Shown: positions 936-38,149 of the stretch, one piece after another
Position numbering within the stretch: position 1 is the first letter of the stretch
Layout: every line of letters starts with the position of its first letter
Source of the DNA: Halorubrum lipolyticum DSM 21995
Lineage (GTDB): Archaea > Halobacteriota > Halobacteria > Halobacteriales > Haloferacaceae
Length of the DNA: 38,149 nt
Reading direction: 5' to 3'
Assembly (NCBI RefSeq): GCF_000337375.1
Contig: NZ_AOJG01000028.1
Location: forward strand, 204,237-242,385
Translations under genes and position numbers: made by a program
Notes under the pieces: model-generated
Seen by the model: the letters and a program-made list of their open reading frames with translations, nothing else
Told to the model about the DNA's origin: nothing
Databases searched by the model: none

Positions 936-2018
936 ATGACGACCACATCCGAACGGTTGCACCGCGCGGGAGACGGCGTTTCCGACCCGATCGTCGAGGT
1001 CAGGAACGCGAGCGTCACGTACGACGACGGAGACACGCACGTGCTCGACGACGTGACGTTCTCGATCGAGCGCAACGAGATCCTCGGCGTGGTCGGCGAG
1101 AGCGGGAGCGGGAAGTCGATGCTCGCGTCGGCGCTGCTCGACGCGGTCCCCGCGCCGGGCCACCTCTCCGGCGAAGTGCTCTATCACCCGGACCGGGACG
1201 CGACCGTCGACATTCTGGAGTTCTCGGACGCGGAACTGAACGAGTACCGATGGGCGGAGGTCTCGATGGTGTTCCAGGGGGCGATGAGCTCGTTCAACCC
1301 CACGATGAAGGTGGGCGCTCACTTCAGCGACACGCTGAAAGCCCACGACCGAGCGGTCTCCGAGGGGTTGGAGTTCGCGCGCGAAATCCTCTCGGACCTG
1401 TATCTCGAGCCCGAGCGCGTCCTCGATTCGTACCCGCACGAGCTCAGCGGGGGGATGCAACAGCGCGCGCTCATCGCGCTCAGCCTCATCCTCGAACCCG
1501 AGGTGCTCGTCATGGACGAGCCGACGGCCGCGCTCGACCTCCTGATGCAGCGGTCGATCCTGCTGTTGCTCGAGGAGATCAAAGAGAAGTACGACGTCAC
1601 GATGGTGTTCATCACCCACGACCTGCCGCTCGTCGCGTCGCTGGCCGACCGCATGGCGGTCATGTACGCGTTCGAACTCGTCGAGGCCGGTCCCCGCGAT
1701 CAGATCATCGGCGACTCGGCGCACCCGTACACGCGGGCGTTGCTCAACTCGACGCCGAACATCGACGCGCCGCTCGAAGACATGCAACCGATTCCGGGCA
1801 AGAGCCCGGCGCCGGTGAACGTCCCGACCGGCTGTTCGTACGCGGACCGCTGCCCGTTGGCGTCCGACACCTGCAGACGGCAGGATCCGACGTTCGAAGC
1901 GGTCAGAGAAGGTCACGCGGTCGCCTGCCACCACTGGGAACGGGCCTCGGAGGAAATCAAACTGACGTTCGGTGAGGCAGCTGCGACAGGCGGAGACGCC
2001 GGGGGTGATCCGCGATGA
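936..2018 (+). CDS. ABC transporter ATP-binding protein, DppD/OppD type
   Basis: First of the two ATPases that energise the peptide-type importer. Walker A is GESGSGKS at residues 54-61, the signature is LSGGMQQR, and Walker B is LVMDEPTAALD, followed by the H-loop His in ITHDLP. The C-terminal oligopeptide-transporter extension is present, with its Cys pattern (GCSYADRCPLASDTC). Length 360 aa is normal. The ATG immediately follows the permease stop codon, and the end overlaps the next ATPase by ATGA, which indicates translational coupling. Confident on family, not on substrate. Confidence 0.95.
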   Translation: MTTTSERLHRAGDGVSDPIVEVRNASVTYDDGDTHVLDDVTFSIERNEILGVVGESGSGKSMLASALLDAVPAPGHLSGEVLYHPDRDATVDILEFSDAELNEYRWAEVSMVFQGAMSSFNPTMKVGAHFSDTLKAHDRAVSEGLEFAREILSDLYLEPERVLDSYPHELSGGMQQRALIALSLILEPEVLVMDEPTAALDLLMQRSILLLLEEIKEKYDVTMVFITHDLPLVASLADRMAVMYAFELVEAGPRDQIIGDSAHPYTRALLNSTPNIDAPLEDMQPIPGKSPAPVNVPTGCSYADRCPLASDTCRRQDPTFEAVREGHAVACHHWERASEEIKLTFGEAAATGGDAGGDPR

Positions 2019-3103
2019 GTCGCGCCCGTGACACCGCCGCAGACAGCGACGGGGACGCTCCGCTGATCTCCGTTAACGACCTCGAGGTGCACTTCGAAAC
2101 GGAACAGGGGCTCCTCGAAATGTTCGACGATCCGGACGTCGTGAGGGCCGTCGACGGCGTGTCAGTCGACATCGGGGAAAACGACGTGCTCGCGCTCGTC
2201 GGGGAGAGCGGCTGCGGGAAGACGACGCTCGGCAAGACGATTATCGGGCTCCAGGAGCCGACCGGGGGGTCGATCGCTTACCGGGGGAGAGACATCTGGG
2301 AAACGAAGGCCGGGAACACCGACCTCTCGTTCGACGACATCCGGTCGTCGCTGCAGATCATCCACCAGGACCCGGGGAGCTCGCTGAATCCGAATCGTCG
2401 GATCGTCGAAACGCTCTCGGAACCGATCAGGCTCACGCACCCGGACATCTCAGCCGGCGAGCGTCGGAGTCGGATCTACTCGCTGCTCGAACGGGTCGGG
2501 ATGACGCCGCCGCGCGATTTCGCGAGCCGGTATCCCCACCAGCTGTCGGGCGGCGAGAAACAGCGCGTGGCCCTGGCGCGCGCGCTGCTGATGAACCCCG
2601 ACGTGATTCTGGCCGACGAGGCGATCAGCGCGCTCGACGTCTCGCTGCGGGTGGAGATGATGGACCTGATGCTCGACTTGCAAGAGGAGTTCGACACCTC
2701 GTTCGTCTTCATCTCGCACGACCTCTCGAACGCTCGGTACTTCGCGGCGCACGGGAACGGCCGCATCGGCGTGATGTACCTCGGAAACCTGGTCGAGGTC
2801 GGTCCGCCGGACCGGCTCATCTCCGACCCGAAGCACCCGTACACTGAGGTGTTGCGGTGGGCCACCCCGAACCTTGCGTTAGACGCGTCCGAGGCCGGGG
2901 ATCCGCCGATGCGGAAGATCGATATCCCCGACCCGGTCAATCCGCCCAGCGGCTGTCGGTTCCACACCCGCTGTCCGGAGGCGAGAACGGCGTGTACACG
3001 GGAGCAACCGGAGCTACGAACGCTCGAGGACGGTCACCGAGCCGCCTGTTTCCGGTCGGAATCCGACCATCGGTACTGGGAGAGCGACCCGATAGAGGAC
3101 TGA
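2015..3103 (+). CDS. ABC transporter ATP-binding protein, DppF/OppF type
   Basis: Second ATPase of the same importer, 362 aa. Walker A GESGCGKTT, signature LSGGEKQR and Walker B ILADEAISALD are all present, with the C-terminal oligopeptide-type extension (GCRFHTRCPEARTAC). It overlaps the preceding gene by 4 bases (ATGA). The Walker B segment reads DEAISALD rather than the more usual DEPTSALD, a common variation in the second ATPase of peptide importers. It is the last gene of the operon. Confidence 0.95.
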   Translation: MSRARDTAADSDGDAPLISVNDLEVHFETEQGLLEMFDDPDVVRAVDGVSVDIGENDVLALVGESGCGKTTLGKTIIGLQEPTGGSIAYRGRDIWETKAGNTDLSFDDIRSSLQIIHQDPGSSLNPNRRIVETLSEPIRLTHPDISAGERRSRIYSLLERVGMTPPRDFASRYPHQLSGGEKQRVALARALLMNPDVILADEAISALDVSLRVEMMDLMLDLQEEFDTSFVFISHDLSNARYFAAHGNGRIGVMYLGNLVEVGPPDRLISDPKHPYTEVLRWATPNLALDASEAGDPPMRKIDIPDPVNPPSGCRFHTRCPEARTACTREQPELRTLEDGHRAACFRSESDHRYWESDPIED

Positions 3104-6209: not shown

Positions 6210-8672
6210 TCAGTCGGTCTTCTCCCCCTTCCTGCCGCTCTCGCCGCCCGTTCGGGCGTCGCCGTTCGAACCCTCAACGCGCGGGAACGCGCCGTCCATC
6301 GACGGCAGCGACTCGAACGACCGAGTCGTCGTGGCCATCTCGTTCGGTTCGACGGTCAGTTCCGCGCCGTCGGAAAACGACGCCTCGACCCGCTCGTCGC
6401 CGGCGTTGTACGCGACGTAGGTGCGCGTCGACCCGTCCCGAAACACGCCGTAGAACGGCGTGTCCGCTGACACGGTCGCGTCCGGCGTCCCCACGGCGTC
6501 GAGCGTGTGAATCCAGTGGGCGGTGTGGGCGCGGGATTCCGCGAAGTCGGCGGTCGCGTAGTCGGCGTCGTACCAGGCGCGCGCTTCGTCCGGATCCGAG
6601 AGCGCCCGGAACTCCCAGAGGACGTCCGTGTACCACCCGAGGTCGAACGACCCGTCGCCGCCGTCGTTCTCGAGCAGCTCCGACCAGTTCGCCGCGGCGG
6701 CGTCCCGGTTCCACCCGAGATACAGCGAGTGGCCGCCGACCGGGAGGTAGTTGATCGCGTGGATCGACTCCGGGTCCTGATCGAACCACGTGGCGTACTT
6801 GTATCCGCGTCCCCAGACGATGCCGGCGTAGTCGTACGGCCACGCGTCGGGGAGATTCTCGTCGGCGACGTCGAACCAGTACTCGAGGGCCGCGTGGATC
6901 TCATGGGTGTAGAGGTAGATGCCCGCGTCACGGATCGCGTCGTCGCCCGTCTGTTCCCCCCAGAGTATCATGGCGGCGTAGGCGTTGATCGCCTCCGACG
7001 ACGACTCCTGGTTACAGCCGGCCGGCAGCTCGCCGCTCCCGGACGCCCACGAGTGGCCCGCGTACGGACTGAAGTTCCGAAAGAACGGGTATCGGGAGTC
7101 GTCACGGTCGGGATTCGCATAGTCCCGGACGAGGTGGTCGACAACTCCTCCGTACGCGTCCTCGCGTGCCCACTGCGGGTCGGCCCGTGCGATCTCCGCC
7201 GCCGCCTTGACCCAGTAGCCGTAATGGAAGTGGTGGTCGTTCAGCTCGGCGTCGGCACCGAACCCCATCGGCGCTCCGTTCAACGTCCCCCAGACGCCGT
7301 CGTACCAGAACAGATCTCTCTCGTCGACGTCACCCTCGCTTCCCGCGGAGAACCACGTCTCTAACTCGTCGCGAATCGCGTCTCGGAACCGCTCCGCGGC
7401 GTCGTCGTCGTCGACCTGCTCGGCGATCGGAGCGAGCTGGAGGAGCCGTTCGAAGTTCTTCCCGGTCCAGTAGGTCCCGTCGCCCTGCCAGTCGCGAATG
7501 AGCGTGTCTTCGGCCTCGACTGCGTCGACGGCGTCCGCCAGGTTTGGAACGTCAGCCGCGTCGGGGAGGAAGGGAACGAGCCCGCGATACGGGAGTTCGG
7601 TCGCGAATCTCGAGCCGGCGTAGACCGGCATGTCGCCCCGCGGCGAGACGTAGGACCAGTCGCTCAGCTCGTTCGCGGTTCGCTTCGCTTGGTGGGGGTA
7701 GAGCGCGGTCAGCGTCTCGTCTGCCCGGCCGTGCTTCGCTTCGAGGTCGAACTCGTAGTCGGTGACGACCGCGGAGCGGTCCGCGTCGTACTCCCACGTC
7801 ACCGTGGTGTCCGTGACGAACGCGTACGCGTGGCGTCGGTAGGCGTTCAACGCCTTCGGCGTGGCCTCGGGGAGCACCGCGAGAGAGGCGTACCCCTCCT
7901 CACCGAGCCCGGACGAGGTTGCGTCGTCGTCGACACCGTCCCAGGTTGCCCCCGGCGGCGCGAACAGCCCGTAGTGACTGCCCGCGACCGACACTCCCAA
8001 CACGTGGTCTCGCTCGTGCCAGACCGACACGTCGTCTTCGAACGCCACGTCGATGCCGGCTCCGGCCGTCTCGAAGTAGACGAACGGTGACCCCTGCGTG
8101 AGCGTCACCTCCAGGCTGGCCTCGCCGTCGGTCTGTCGATAGGTGACGGACCAGTCACCGTAGTCGGCGACCTCGGCCGGCACGTCGGCGTCGATGCGTG
8201 GGTGAGAGACGGTCAGGTCGGGGGCGATGGGACCGGTACTCGCGTCCGGTGAGGACGTCAGCTCTGCGAAGTCGTCGGTCCGCTCGCCCCACGTGAACGG
8301 TGCGTCGCCGACCTGCCACTCGTCCGGATACGTGATCGCGAGTCCAGACTCGGTCACGCGCGCCGCCAGCGGATGGATCCAGAGGTTTTCAGAGCGCGGT
8401 CGCCAGAGGAGCGTCGTCCACCAGTCGTTCGTTGGATACGGTGCCGAGAGGTCGTCTACCGCGTAGACGGTCCGAGGCGGTGCACCCGCTGCGTCCGGTC
8501 GTCTGTGCGCGATGCTGCCCGCTCCGACCGCTTCGATGTCGGCGTCCGCCGCGCTCGCGTTGAAACTCCCCGTTGCCGTGAGTACGCCGCCCGCGAGCAG
8601 CCCTCCGAGCCACGTTCGCCTGGTCACGTTCGAATTCGATCCGTCGATCGGGGTGTGTGCGTTGTCTTCCAT
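6210..8672 (-). CDS. Tat-exported GH81 endo-beta-1,3-glucanase (laminarinase)
   Basis: 820 aa secreted enzyme that cleaves beta-1,3-glucan such as laminarin. A twin-arginine signal is at residues 17-42 (TRRTWLGG, then a hydrophobic stretch and an ASAA cleavage region). The GH81 start motif PTNDWWTTLLW follows. The catalytic core is intact: Asp479 in NDHHFHYGYW (acid) and Glu556/Glu560 in CNQESSSEA (base region), preceded by YAGHSWASG. The C-terminal part ends in a short beta-type segment and a charged tail (GGESGRKGEKTD). Length fits the family. A beta-glucanase in a haloarchaeon implies use of algal or yeast glucan. No glucan-specific transporter is adjacent; the ribose-type importer is 11 kb away. 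Confidence 0.93.
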   Translation of the reverse strand: MEDNAHTPIDGSNSNVTRRTWLGGLLAGGVLTATGSFNASAADADIEAVGAGSIAHRRPDAAGAPPRTVYAVDDLSAPYPTNDWWTTLLWRPRSENLWIHPLAARVTESGLAITYPDEWQVGDAPFTWGERTDDFAELTSSPDASTGPIAPDLTVSHPRIDADVPAEVADYGDWSVTYRQTDGEASLEVTLTQGSPFVYFETAGAGIDVAFEDDVSVWHERDHVLGVSVAGSHYGLFAPPGATWDGVDDDATSSGLGEEGYASLAVLPEATPKALNAYRRHAYAFVTDTTVTWEYDADRSAVVTDYEFDLEAKHGRADETLTALYPHQAKRTANELSDWSYVSPRGDMPVYAGSRFATELPYRGLVPFLPDAADVPNLADAVDAVEAEDTLIRDWQGDGTYWTGKNFERLLQLAPIAEQVDDDDAAERFRDAIRDELETWFSAGSEGDVDERDLFWYDGVWGTLNGAPMGFGADAELNDHHFHYGYWVKAAAEIARADPQWAREDAYGGVVDHLVRDYANPDRDDSRYPFFRNFSPYAGHSWASGSGELPAGCNQESSSEAINAYAAMILWGEQTGDDAIRDAGIYLYTHEIHAALEYWFDVADENLPDAWPYDYAGIVWGRGYKYATWFDQDPESIHAINYLPVGGHSLYLGWNRDAAAANWSELLENDGGDGSFDLGWYTDVLWEFRALSDPDEARAWYDADYATADFAESRAHTAHWIHTLDAVGTPDATVSADTPFYGVFRDGSTRTYVAYNAGDERVEASFSDGAELTVEPNEMATTTRSFESLPSMDGAFPRVEGSNGDARTGGESGRKGEKTD

Positions 8673-32240: not shown

Positions 32241-33536
<1,296 letters not shown>

Positions 33537-33589: not shown

Positions 33590-34057
<468 letters not shown>

Positions 34058-34247
34058 ACATATTGATAGTTTACGGGTTGTATAAGCATTTCATCTAGAG
34101 GCTTTGCGGGAAATCAGATATATATATATCGTAGAGCTCTGTTGAAATCCTCACCAGTTGATGGTTTCACGCTCTCAATCACTCAGTACAGGTGAAGGAT
34201 GACTCATCAGTAGCGATGGCAGTTCGCAACACCGGCGACGCCGGTAG
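34058..34247. other. AT-rich spacer, possible IS end
   Basis: Holds the membrane protein promoter and a (TA)-rich run near 34120-34130. The string GAGCTCTGTTGAAATCC (about 34134-34150) resembles inverted-repeat ends of some haloarchaeal insertion sequences as I remember them, but no partner end or transposase is seen. Confidence 0.3.
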
Positions 34248-34427
34248 TCACTCTCCTGCCCTCGTCGAGACGATCTCCTTCGAACCGCATTCCGGGCACT
34301 GGTCGTCGTTGGCATTGAACCGCGCGTTGCACGACTGACACTGGTAGTCCGCGTTGTCGTCGGCTACTTCCTTCGCAGTCTGTTTGAATTTCTCGACCTG
34401 TCGCCCGGCTCTTTCGAAGAATCCCAT
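34248..34427 (-). CDS. Small zinc-ribbon protein
   Basis: 59 aa. A helical N-terminus (MGFFERAGRQVEKFKQTAKEVADDNA) is followed by a C4 zinc ribbon (CQSC and CPECG separated by 13 residues). Tiny C-terminal zinc-ribbon proteins with this MGFFERAGR start are widespread in haloarchaea; many affect growth, biofilm or stress adaptation, though the role of this one is not known. ATG 34427 is preferred over a GC-rich upstream extension because of the family start. Confidence 0.8.
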   Translation of the reverse strand: MGFFERAGRQVEKFKQTAKEVADDNADYQCQSCNARFNANDDQCPECGSKEIVSTRAGE

Positions 34428-35081
34428 CCGTCCTTTCCTACTAGCCGGTCGAACGGGATAAGCGTTCATCGAGTGTAGGCTGTTAGATTCGCATCTCTCA
34501 GCGATCGGCTGTTTCGGGGGAGAATACGTCTGAAGATGAACATTGTATTAGGACCAGACGTAGAGAGAGGGACTCGTCACAGGATCCGCGGTAGCGTACG
34601 GCCGGTATCGACTGTTGTTGAGCCGCATCACCGTTCCGAGGGGTCGATCCGAGTTTGAGTCCTCGATCGAACGTCGATGACCACCTTCTGGTCCAGCGAT
34701 GAATGCTGGACCGGCACTGATTGATCCCGAATACCTCGAGAGTTAATATTGTATCTAAAAGTGGTAATACGGTCGGAGACCGAGCCTAGTCTCGATCGCC
34801 GTTTTCACACGGTCGACTAGTCGAGGACAACGGTGATACCGCGTACATTCTCTCGACACATGACCGCCCAATAGTTGTGAAAATGAGGCGCGTATCAAAC
34901 ACACTCCTCGAGATTGTGGAGTCGCCCGGAGTTTCGGAGGAGAGACCTTTTTGAAACAGTCTGGGGTCGTCGCGATCGCGGCGTCCACACCGGAACCAAG
35001 CGCGACGGTATGTACAGTAGTTCAATGGAATTCGGTACATGACTCCGTATTTTCATAAGGAACTCCGACGTGTCGGCGGGT
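34428..35081. other. 654-base region without a recognised gene
   Basis: Both strands hold only short frames (for example minus 34755-34988) without family features. A hairpin with an 8-bp perfect stem (GGTCCAGC, 7-base loop, GCTGGACC) is at 34690-34712. Right before 35082 an AT-rich TTTTCATAAGG could be the promoter of the exchanger gene. Some of it may be eroded mobile DNA, given its neighbours. Confidence 0.5.
34690..34712. repeat. Inverted repeat, 8-bp stem
   Basis: GGTCCAGC-GATGAAT-GCTGGACC. A perfect stem with a 7-base loop in non-coding DNA between divergent genes; no T-tract follows, so it is not an obvious terminator. Confidence 0.6.
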
Positions 35082-36266
35082 ATGAACGTCTCACGGCTGG
35101 TCGTCGCGTCGCTCGTCGTCGTGATGCTCGTGTCGCTCCCGGTCGCTCCCGCGGCCGCACAGGACGGCGGAGGAGACGCGGGGGCGTCGGACGAAGGCGG
35201 TATCGAGGGACAGATCGAGGGCTTCGTCGAGGGGCTCGGACTGGCCGGCGCCGTGGCCGTGCTCGTCGCCGGTGCCGTCATCCTGACCGTCTGCGCCGAG
35301 AAGCTGATAAGCTACCTCACACGGGCGGCGCTGGGGTTGCGGGTCTCGCTGTTCACCCTCGCGATCCTCTTTACTGGGATCGAGTTCGACGACACGATCC
35401 TCGCGCTCGTGTTGTCCGCGGGCGACCTCGAGGGGGCCGCGCTCGGGACGGCGCTCGGCACCGGGCTGGCGATCGTCGGCGTCACGCTGGCGCTCGCCGC
35501 GATCATCAGGCCCTTCCCGGTCGATCTCCCGGCCGACTACGTCGTGCTCTTCGCGCTGGGACCGATACTGCTGATCCCGTTCGTGCTCGCGGGGACCCTG
35601 ACGACCGTTCACGGGCTGGTGCTTCTCGGCTTCTTCCTCCTGACGTTCGGGTACATCATCGCCCGCGAGCGGCAGCGCGACACGCCGGTGTTTCGCGACA
35701 CCGAGCTCGGCGAGACGCTCCGGTCCGACGGCGGAGTCGCCGCGCCGCAGTCGCTCTCGGAGATCCCGGAGGACCGGCTCATCGGGGGCCGGTCGGCGTC
35801 CGGGTGGCCGTGGATGGCGCTCGCGGTCCTCGCGCTTGCCGGGATCGTGTTCGCGTCGATGCTGCTCGAGGCCGGCTCGGAGGTCGTCATGGAGGGGTTC
35901 GGCCTCGAACAGACCGTCTTCGGCGCAACCGTGCTGACGGTGATCCTCACGTTCGAGGACATCATGCTCACGATCGAGCCGGTGCGTCGGGGGGTCCCCG
36001 AGATCGGGGTCGGAAACGTCATCGGGAGCGTTCTCTTCTCGGTGACGGGCAACGTCGGCGTCATCATGCTACTCAGCGACCTCGAGATATCCCGGTCGGT
36101 GCTGACGTTCCACCTCCCGTCGGTGATCATCGTCACGACGCTTGCGGCGTACTTCCTCTATTCGGGCGAACTCAAGCGCTGGCACGGGTTCCTTCTCGGC
36201 GGGCTCTACGTCGTCTACTGGGTGGCCGCGATCCTCGTCTTCGGCGGCGTTCCGATCGGTGGCTGA
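35082..36266 (+). CDS. Sodium/calcium exchanger-like membrane protein
   Basis: 394 aa. An N-terminal Sec-type signal (NVSRLVVASLVVVMLVSLPVAPAAAQ, residues 2-27) and an acidic Gly-rich segment precede about ten membrane helices. Two internally repeated alpha-type motifs can be seen. One is IEFDDTILALVLSAGDLEGAALGTALG in the first half; the other is LTFEDIMLTIEPVRRGVPEIGVGNVIGSVLFS in the second half, each with an acidic residue in a helix, matching the Na+/Ca2+ exchanger fold. A central loop of about 50 residues (195-240) separates the halves. The usual GTSLPE of the exchangers is changed to LTFEDI, so ion specificity is uncertain. ATG 35082 is chosen over a GTG 12 bases upstream by the signal peptide. 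Confidence 0.8.
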   Translation: MNVSRLVVASLVVVMLVSLPVAPAAAQDGGGDAGASDEGGIEGQIEGFVEGLGLAGAVAVLVAGAVILTVCAEKLISYLTRAALGLRVSLFTLAILFTGIEFDDTILALVLSAGDLEGAALGTALGTGLAIVGVTLALAAIIRPFPVDLPADYVVLFALGPILLIPFVLAGTLTTVHGLVLLGFFLLTFGYIIARERQRDTPVFRDTELGETLRSDGGVAAPQSLSEIPEDRLIGGRSASGWPWMALAVLALAGIVFASMLLEAGSEVVMEGFGLEQTVFGATVLTVILTFEDIMLTIEPVRRGVPEIGVGNVIGSVLFSVTGNVGVIMLLSDLEISRSVLTFHLPSVIIVTTLAAYFLYSGELKRWHGFLLGGLYVVYWVAAILVFGGVPIGG

Positions 36267-36349
36267 TCGACGGCGTTCCGAGCGGTGGTTGATCGACGGC
36301 GTTCCGATCGGCGGTCGGTCGGCGGCGTTCCGATCGGTCCCGCGACGCG
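36246..36349 (+). repeat. Tandem repeat, four 26-base units
   Basis: Units at 36246-36271, 36272-36297, 36298-36323 and 36324-36349 share GGCGTTCCGATCGG with divergent tails. The first unit includes the last codons and stop of the exchanger gene, so the array grew from its 3' end. It lies between that gene and the HTH fusion. Confidence 0.85.
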
Positions 36350-36385
36350 CCGGCGGGAGGGTCGCCTGCCGGTCGCCGAGGCGAG

Positions 36386-36395
36386 CATTTTTACC
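36386..36395 (+). promoter_or_regulatory. TATA-like element of the HTH-binding protein gene
   Basis: CATTTTTACC lies 24-33 bases before the ATG at 36419, implying a leaderless transcript. Confidence 0.5.
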
Positions 36396-36418
36396 TCGGT
36401 TCGACTCATACGTGAACG

Positions 36419-37726
36419 ATGGACACGGTTGAACACTGGGTACTCGACGACGACGACCGCGTGCTCGTCGAGCGGTTGGCGGCCGGGCTCGGCCGCGACG
36501 CGGCGCGGGTGCTCGCGTACCTCCTCTTGCGCCGCGATCACGAGCGGATCGACCGGTCGCGGGCGACGTCGATGGCGATCCGCATCGGGACGGGACTGAA
36601 CGGGAAGGCCGTCGACGACGCGGTCTCGAAGCTCGAAGCGCGGGACCTGATCGAGCGAGCCGTCGTCGAGTCGTCCGGGGGCGGACGACCGCCGAACGCG
36701 TGGCGCCCGGCACGGGACCACCGCGAGACCCTCGACCGCGTGTACCACACCCATTCGATCGCCCTCCTCGAACGGGCGGCCGCGGTCGCGGACGCCGATC
36801 GGGAGCCGGCAGCGGGGGCAGAGCCGCTCAACGAACCGGGAGACGAGTCCGCACCCGAGCGCAGAGCCGAGGTCGTCGTCGCGCTCAACTGGCGGCCGAA
36901 CGCGCTCCATCTCCCGCTGTACGCCGCCGTCGACGAGGGGGCGTACGAGCGACGAGGGCTCGACGTGAGCGTCACCAACCACCGCGGCTCGCACCAGGCG
37001 CTCGAAGCGGTACTCGACGGGAGCGCGGACGTCGGGCTCGTCGGGGCGGGGTCGGTCGTCCGGGCGCTGGCCGCGGATCGCCCGGTCGTCCCGCTCGCCG
37101 TACTCCACCAGCGGACCGCGACGGTGCTGTACGCGATCCGCGACCGCTTCGGCGAGCCGTTCGAGAGTGTGAACCAGCTGCGCGGGCGGCGGATCCTCAC
37201 GACGACGGGGTCCGAGACGTGTCTGCTTGCGAGACTGTTCCTCTCTCAGACCGACCTGCTCAGCGAGGTAGAGCTCGTCGACGCCGACGGCGAGGAGCGC
37301 GACGCGCTGATCGCCGGCGACGCCGACGTGGCGACGGGATCGTTCGCTGATCCGCTCGAACTGGAGACGGACGGCCGGACGGTCGACGTCCTCTCGATCG
37401 GCGACCACTTCCCGATCTACGGGCTCACGCTCGTGGGCTCGGCGGCCGCGTTCGAGCGGGGAGGCGAGCCCTGGCGGCGGTTCCTCGCGGGGACCGCGTC
37501 GGGCTGGGCGACGGCGCGGACCGATCCCGTCTCGGGGGCCGCGGCGGTGGCCGCGGAGACTGACGAGCCCGCGGGCGCCGTGAGCGAGCGCTTCGCGCGG
37601 GCGGTCGAGTCGTTCGGGGCGCGGGACGTGGTGCGGGACGAGGGGTGGGGGTGGCACGGGCCGGCGAGGTGGGACCGGATGGAGGCCGCGCTGGAGCAGG
37701 GAGATCTGCTCGGTGAGGCCCCGTGA
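36419..37726 (+). CDS. HTH domain fused to NMT1/THI5-like ABC substrate-binding domain
   Basis: 435 aa, no signal peptide or membrane segment, so it stays in the cytoplasm. Residues about 15-100 form a winged helix (LGRDAARVLAYLLLRRDHERIDRS, LNGKAVDDAVSKLEARDLIERAV, then the wing SSGGGRPPNAWRP), similar to archaeal GntR/MarR/TrmB-type wHTHs. After an acidic linker (about 120-150) comes a complete periplasmic-binding-protein domain (NWRPNALHLPLYAAVDEGAYERRGLDV, GSADVGLVGAGSVVRALAADRP, VNQLRGRRILTTTGSE, and a C-terminal helix set). The stop overlaps the GTG start of an ABC ATPase. It therefore looks like a regulator that senses the transported ligand (nitrate, sulfonate, bicarbonate or pyrimidine-like class) and controls its operon. 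Confidence 0.88.
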   Translation: MDTVEHWVLDDDDRVLVERLAAGLGRDAARVLAYLLLRRDHERIDRSRATSMAIRIGTGLNGKAVDDAVSKLEARDLIERAVVESSGGGRPPNAWRPARDHRETLDRVYHTHSIALLERAAAVADADREPAAGAEPLNEPGDESAPERRAEVVVALNWRPNALHLPLYAAVDEGAYERRGLDVSVTNHRGSHQALEAVLDGSADVGLVGAGSVVRALAADRPVVPLAVLHQRTATVLYAIRDRFGEPFESVNQLRGRRILTTTGSETCLLARLFLSQTDLLSEVELVDADGEERDALIAGDADVATGSFADPLELETDGRTVDVLSIGDHFPIYGLTLVGSAAAFERGGEPWRRFLAGTASGWATARTDPVSGAAAVAAETDEPAGAVSERFARAVESFGARDVVRDEGWGWHGPARWDRMEAALEQGDLLGEAP

Positions 37727-38125
37727 TCGAAATCGACGGCGTGACCGTCGCGTTCGACGACGTTCGGGCGGTCGAGGACGTCGATCTGACGGTCGAAGAC
37801 GGGGAGTTCCTCACGGTGGTCGGCCCGTCCGGCTGCGGAAAGACCACGCTGTTGCGAACCGTCGGCGGGCTCCAGGAGCCGACCGCGGGCCGCGTCCGCG
37901 TGAACGGACGGACCACGGACGCGGCGCGGACGAACGCGGAGCTCGGGTACGTGTTCCAACAGTACACGCTGCTGCCGTGGAAGTCGGCCGTGGAGAACGT
38001 CGCCTTCCTCCGAGAGATGGCCGGAAAGCCGCCCGACAGGGAGGGGGCGAGACGGCTCCTGCGCGAGGTCGGCCTGGAGGAGTTCGAAGACGCTCGCCCG
38101 GAGACGCTCTCGGGAGGGATGAAAC
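37723..38125 (+). CDS. ABC transporter ATPase, SsuB/TauB type (3'-partial)
   Basis: 134 residues of an ATPase of the nitrate/sulfonate/taurine group: Walker A GPSGCGKTT (about residues 34-42), Q-loop YVFQQYTLLPW, and the signature LSGGMK at the break. The GTG start overlaps the fusion gene (GTGA). Genomic sequence ends near 38125; the continuation (PVSYTHL) is adapter translation. Its permease partner should lie beyond the contig end. Confidence 0.9.
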
Positions 38126-38149
38126 CTGTCTCTTATACACATCTCTGAG
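38126..38149 (+). other. Tn5/Nextera mosaic-end adapter (sequencing artefact)
   Basis: CTGTCTCTTATACACATCT (38126-38144) is exactly the 19-base mosaic end used in Nextera libraries, and the last 5 bases (CTGAG) match the adapter continuation CCGAG with one mismatch. It interrupts the ABC ATPase after LSGGMK. It is not host sequence. Confidence 0.97.

Follow-up and report, generated by a model that had tools for sequence, protein, structure and literature searches.

At the end of the window, by which we mean the whole 38,149-nucleotide stretch of Halorubrum lipolyticum DSM 21995 DNA analysed here, a gene predicted to join a DNA-binding helix-turn-helix (HTH) to an importer-type binding-protein domain directly precedes the gene of an ABC ATPase. 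This arrangement raises the question of whether the importer is controlled by a cytoplasmic protein that senses the imported compound, and of which compound that may be.

Architecture and location of the fusion protein

The gene and the predicted parts of its product are:

36419–37726, forward strand: gene of the HTH–binding-protein fusion (435 aa), a putative regulator that senses a ligand
36449–36709, forward strand: predicted winged-helix DNA-binding domain, residues 11–97 (AlphaFold2 secondary structure, invariant columns, MarR_2 matches)
36719–36793, forward strand: long helix, residues 101–125 (AlphaFold2)
36803–36865, forward strand: flexible linker, residues 129–149 (low pLDDT at 129–146; variable in the family alignment)
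36866–37699, forward strand: NMT1/THI5-type periplasmic-binding-protein domain, residues 150–427 (PF09084, Foldseek)

Residues 162–370 of the fusion match the Pfam family NMT1 (PF09084) with an E-value of 2.2e-25 and 90.3 bits against a gathering score of 20.5, and all 53 members of the fusion family match PF09084 above that score. Foldseek relates the protein to ThiY (3ix1) with an E-value of 8.8e-16. Of the two domain checks proposed in the sequence-only reading of this DNA, that of the N-terminal part was less conclusive: MarR_2 is matched by 26 of the 53 family members at E ≤ 0.1 (best 7.7e-6), but the N-terminus of the window's own member has no Pfam match. Its match to the NCBIfam regulator MreA (1.1e-4) lies below the cut-off, and a search of the N-terminal domain alone against the PDB returned no meaningful match. 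The AlphaFold2 model computed with the 53-member alignment displays a confident winged helix followed by the binding-protein fold (mean pLDDT 90.9, pTM 0.89). The N-terminal helices span residues 11–24, 26–40, 51–58 and 62–74, the last being the predicted recognition helix, and the wing, with strands 78–82 and 93–97, carries a GRP motif at 89–91 that is invariant across the fusion family. The long helix 101–125 that follows is likely a dimerisation helix.

The reading frame comprises just 436 codons from stop to stop, and a stop codon stands directly 5′ of the fusion start, so that a longer, signal-bearing form is impossible. An overlooked start further upstream that would add a signal peptide, raised earlier as an objection to the cytoplasmic reading, is therefore ruled out. 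In none of the 54 fusions collected could an export signal (signal peptide or lipobox) be recognised; the exported partner binding proteins are for the most part Tat lipoproteins. With a real ORF, the PF09084 match, the modelled winged helix and this uniform lack of signals, the original description of an HTH–binding-protein fusion that stays inside the cell is borne out. Judged by the absence of a signal, the fusion protein is cytoplasmic, and with a predicted DNA-binding and a predicted ligand-binding domain in one cytoplasmic chain it has the architecture of a one-component regulator. At the level of architecture, the predicted regulatory role is well supported.

Regulators of the LacI/GalR type pair an HTH with an importer-type binding-protein domain that serves as a cytoplasmic sensor; theirs is a type I binding fold with a LacI HTH, whereas the fusion joins a type II NMT1 domain to a MarR-like winged helix. 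In the YhfZ-type regulators of E. coli, for which no transporter link is known, an HTH is likewise followed by a binding-protein-like C-terminal domain. Their layout is like that of the fusion, but the HTH family is different and the similarity marginal, PF14503 (YhfZ-type) being weakly matched by five of the 53 fusion members (best E = 0.034). The LysR-type regulator CysB is cytoplasmic and consists of an N-terminal winged helix and a binding-protein-like effector domain (PMC11329422), and on paper LysR-type regulators are like the fusion in layout and as cytoplasmic sensors. However, neither HTH_1 (PF00126) nor LysR_substrate (PF03466) is among the families listed for the 53 fusion members, the NMT1 domain of the fusion is much nearer to true importer proteins, and the fusion family is archaeal. 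The fusion would work like known one-component regulators with binding-protein sensors, but it could be assigned to none of the regulator families tested.

The adjoining importer and the fusion family

The genes surrounding the fusion lie partly in the window and partly on a second contig, C27:

35082–36266, forward strand: Na+/Ca2+ exchanger family membrane protein (PF01699, E = 1.4e-22), just upstream of the fusion
37723–38125, forward strand: ABC ATPase, N-terminal 134 residues, cut by the contig end (PF00005)
38126–38149, no strand: Tn5/Nextera mosaic-end adapter and a few bases, an assembly artefact (from the sequence)
C27 132–914, forward strand: permease 1, continuing the fusion–ATPase operon
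C27 954–1784, reverse strand: permease 2, convergent to permease 1
C27 about 1856–3019, reverse strand: exported Tat-lipoprotein binding protein, in a convergent operon with permease 2

The GTG start of the ATPase gene at 37723 overlaps the TGA of the fusion by 4 bp, and exactly this overlap is kept in 33 of the 34 relatives in which the ATPase adjoins the fusion, in agreement with the coupling to the ATPase first read from the sequence. Contig C28 ends with the window, whose last 24 bases open with the 19-bp mosaic end CTGTCTCTTATACACATCT (38126–38144), which is adapter and not genome; the ATPase residues beyond about 134 are therefore an artefact. Contig C27 opens with the identical adapter (C27:9–27). 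Compared with Halorubrum salsamenti (L040), which has an intact ATPase orthologue of 259 aa (L040:7305–8084), C28 ends at 7707 and C27 resumes at 7971, both within the ATPase gene, with about 263 bp absent. The permease and the separate exported binding protein that had been suspected past the contig end are both present on C27. The mosaic-end adapter also occurs inside the fetched stretch L084 (11668–11686), and ORFs running into adapter begin or end with adapter-coded residues such as MCIRDR or VYKRQ.

Upstream, a 26-bp tandem repeat of 3.8 copies (36241–36338, consensus TCGACGGCGTTCCGATCGGTGGTTGA) overlaps the 3′ end of the exchanger gene and continues into the intergenic stretch before the fusion. 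Close to the locus, a 349-aa protein encoded at 32487–33536 on the reverse strand resembles, by eye, an IS200/IS605-type TnpB/transposase-associated protein. A defence system was considered and set aside, as PADLOC gave no match.

The fusions form an old family of the haloarchaea: the full fusion is encoded in 57 of 392 genomes of the order, across several families, and in a phylum-level sample of 295 genomes it is confined to the same order. Its relatives are 38–88% identical, most of them 41–54% over their length, with two Halorubrum relatives at 80% and 88%. Neighbourhood maps of 53 fusion loci place the ATPase next to the fusion in 34, the permease as well in 33, and the convergent permease 2 and binding protein in 30; the usual layout is fusion–ATPase–permease facing permease 2–exported binding protein, and some fusions have no adjacent transporter genes. 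Three loci (L065, L075 and L080) encode a single permease-family protein of 510–540 aa, apparently a natural fusion, where others have two permeases, which suggests that permeases 1 and 2 form a heterodimer with one ATPase.

The phylogenetic tree unites the fusion domains in one clade (SH-aLRT 98) and places the exported partners together with a set of cytosolic NMT1 proteins in a second (97). The fusion domain likely arose by duplication of the importer's own binding protein, an origin that falls short of proof because the deeper branching order is weak (69). The cytosolic NMT1-like proteins, which have neither signal peptide nor HTH (CYT, c8, c21), number up to three per locus and often accompany cupin-like and glyoxalase genes (L048, L052, L056, L061, L063, L064, L067, L071, L074, L091, L092). 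Their presence in several of the same loci lends something to the idea that the fusion senses no ligand at all, its binding domain being either a scaffold that has degenerated or a carrier of cofactors in the cytoplasm, and its winged helix not being used to bind DNA. Against this, the 53 diverged members have invariant residues in each of the two domains, including the GRP of the wing and the lobe motifs, which argue that both domains are under selection, and we regard this reading as very unlikely.

Promoter and candidate operator

One element upstream of the fusion is proposed as its promoter:

36387–36393, forward strand: TATA-like element attttta, probable promoter, about 26–32 bp ahead of the ATG of the fusion; also kept in L039 and L040

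An inverted repeat close to TAAAnATTCC-N3-GAAAYGTTTA is often found 10–40 bp upstream of exported-binding-protein genes. At a palindrome score of at least 16 of 20, nine sites occur in about 0.75 Mb, all of them intergenic, compared with about one expected in shuffled sequence. Six lie upstream of exported-binding-protein genes and two in the divergent promoter between cupin-like and cytosolic NMT1 (c21) genes (L056, L063); the pattern was derived first from the exported-binding-protein promoters, which leaves the cupin/c21 sites as the sole independent ones. In the genome of the window the palindrome is weaker (15/20). In most genomes no such palindrome turned up at the promoter of the fusion itself, and it is absent from four orthologous operons in fusion-free genomes. 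This distribution is consistent with the fusion acting at the exported-binding-protein promoter, with the palindrome as its putative operator, a fit rather than a proof; a neighbouring ArsR-type regulator could be its owner instead. The word repressor in the sequence-only reading is not supported, since the sign of control is something that we infer.

Candidate ligands of the proposed sensor domain

The nitrate/sulfonate type first assigned to the binding domain is not supported. By sequence and fold, the solved proteins nearest to the domain are ThiY (3ix1), the thiamin-bound 4nmy and Thi5, which bind pyrimidines or thiamin; the SsuA family scores weakly (36 bits against a cut-off of 163.5), and Foldseek places SsuA/TauA under ThiY/Thi5; a nitrate/sulfonate ligand was rejected accordingly. 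The C-terminal domain of the fusion has its fold and a W-x-x-N-x-x-H entry motif in common with ThiY/Thi5 (NMT1/THI5; 3ix1, 4nmy, 4h65). However, ThiY is an exported protein and Thi5 an enzyme, both without a DNA-binding domain, whereas the fusion is cytoplasmic and carries a winged helix.

These relatives, together with the lack of ThiC in the window's genome, would favour a regulator of the same kind whose ligand is thiamin or a precursor (HMP, formylaminopyrimidine), as for ThiY/Thi5. Yet ThiC is present in 17 of the 24 fusion genomes tested and missing from four of six fusion-free genus-mates, so that the fusion does not follow pyrimidine auxotrophy, and thiamin auxotrophy was dismissed as the driver. 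No thiamin genes were recognised among the recurrent neighbours. Nor does any Rfam family reach its gathering score in 34000–38149, which leaves no TPP riboswitch there and disposes of a riboswitch near the fusion. In addition, the positions conserved in both the fusion and the exported partner are N157, W158, H164, G190-S191, Q231-R232, R241, D311 and G335 (fusion numbering); ThiY has equivalents of W158 and H164 but differs at G190-S191, Q231-R232, R241, D311 and G335. A thiamin-type ligand is thus unlikely in our estimation.

The recurrent neighbours point elsewhere. Among them are an alcohol dehydrogenase that depends on PQQ (TIGR03075 family, E = 1e-111, under that model's cut-off), a 300-aa protein beside the dehydrogenase, a probable cupredoxin and Na/Ca exchanger proteins. 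A PQQ dehydrogenase is encoded in 54 of the 57 fusion genomes versus 18 of 335 others (392 genomes; Fisher 1e-46), and, by genus, in 21 of the 22 with the fusion and in 0 of the 73 others, counts in which kinship is addressed through the genera alone and linked genes travel together. Among the genus-mates listed, the fusion or a PQQ dehydrogenase occurs only in the window's genome. In 40 of 53 loci, no more than 25 kb separates the dehydrogenase from the fusion; the fusion also stands beside the dehydrogenase in loci that lack the transporter (L128, L129), and in fusion-free loci (L125, L126, L134, L135) the transporter accompanies it. This linkage changed the likely ligand from that of the first reading, and a fusion conserved beside both an importer and PQQ-requiring enzymes is probably a switch sensing an imported cofactor. 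PQQ or a PQQ–metal complex is, by genetic context, the leading candidate ligand.

The WDYD motif, the mark of lanthanide-type PQQ dehydrogenases, is present in all 23 close and eight second-clade PQQ dehydrogenases inspected; examples of the DYD type are L007:7485–9200 (G000 C27), L042 and L065. No signal peptide was seen in the PQQ dehydrogenases inspected; if these enzymes are cytoplasmic, it would be sensible for PQQ to be brought into the cytoplasm and to be sensed there. Their 300-aa partner has no Pfam match and a Tat-like N-terminus only in some loci. The DYD motif in every dehydrogenase inspected could also favour a regulator of the same kind that senses a metal, a metal chelate or the alcohol substrate of the neighbouring dehydrogenases instead of PQQ, as could the Na+/Ca2+ exchanger family genes found in 24 of the related loci and the aldehyde oxidoreductase-like (AOR) genes identified by eye in 10. 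We consider such a ligand improbable, as the NMT1 fold, given the conservation of its Trp/Asn/His entry motif, would seem to suit ring compounds more than bare ions.

For PQQ itself, a solved binding protein offers a comparison. PqqT is the periplasmic PQQ-binding protein of Methylobacterium (Methylorubrum) extorquens (9b1u, 9b1v; PMC12124388, PMC12828617) and binds PQQ with a Kd of about 50 nM (PMC12124388). Its fold (9b1u) is the same as that of the fusion's binding domain (Foldseek 1.7e-9), and the fusion locus is likewise tied to PQQ enzymes. PqqT is, however, periplasmic and has no HTH, and a sequence relationship was not detected, the fusion profile searched against PDB chains not returning PqqT at E ≤ 10.

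Canonical PQQ synthesis was not found in the fusion genomes searched, which argues for import. PqqC had no match in 24 fusion genomes, an absence that is suggestive only because the model was silent everywhere, including in a bacterial MAG meant as positive control; PqqE-like matches were far under the cut-off, as in the control genomes. We tentatively propose, at somewhat less than even confidence, that haloarchaea which have lanthanide-type dehydrogenases, and which apparently lack canonical PQQ synthesis, scavenge PQQ or a PQQ–metal complex by an ABC importer dedicated to this task, its permease being a heterodimer, under a PQQ-sensing winged-helix/binding-protein regulator.

Taken together, these predictions seem to support, on balance, the broader reading of the fusion as a one-component transcription regulator that is located in the cytoplasm and senses whatever the adjacent importer takes up, PQQ or a PQQ–metal complex being the first candidate. 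Its C-terminal domain would come from the NMT1-type stock common to the importer's exported binding protein and would bind what the importer brings in, or some form of that compound, within the cell. Ligand binding would close the two lobes as a switch, and this closure, passed on through the linker and the long helix, may alter how the presumed winged-helix dimer is seated on DNA. The outcome would be an adjustment, in whichever direction, of importer transcription: of the ATPase and permease 1 in the fusion's own operon, and of permease 2 and the exported binding protein in the convergent one. Neighbouring cofactor-using genes would probably also be controlled by the fusion.

The open-access literature searched yielded no description of the fusion architecture or of haloarchaeal PQQ uptake, and the fusions make up a family of regulators that is real, conserved and, it appears, undescribed so far. 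If this reading is right, archaea would gain a named, testable regulator family in which an importer binding protein has been recruited as an intracellular sensor, probably for its own importer's ligand. The locus would then represent a complete archaeal cofactor-scavenging route, with an exported binding protein, a heterodimeric permease, a sensor, a metal exchanger and DYD-type dehydrogenases, and it renders the PQQ supply of haloarchaea directly testable.
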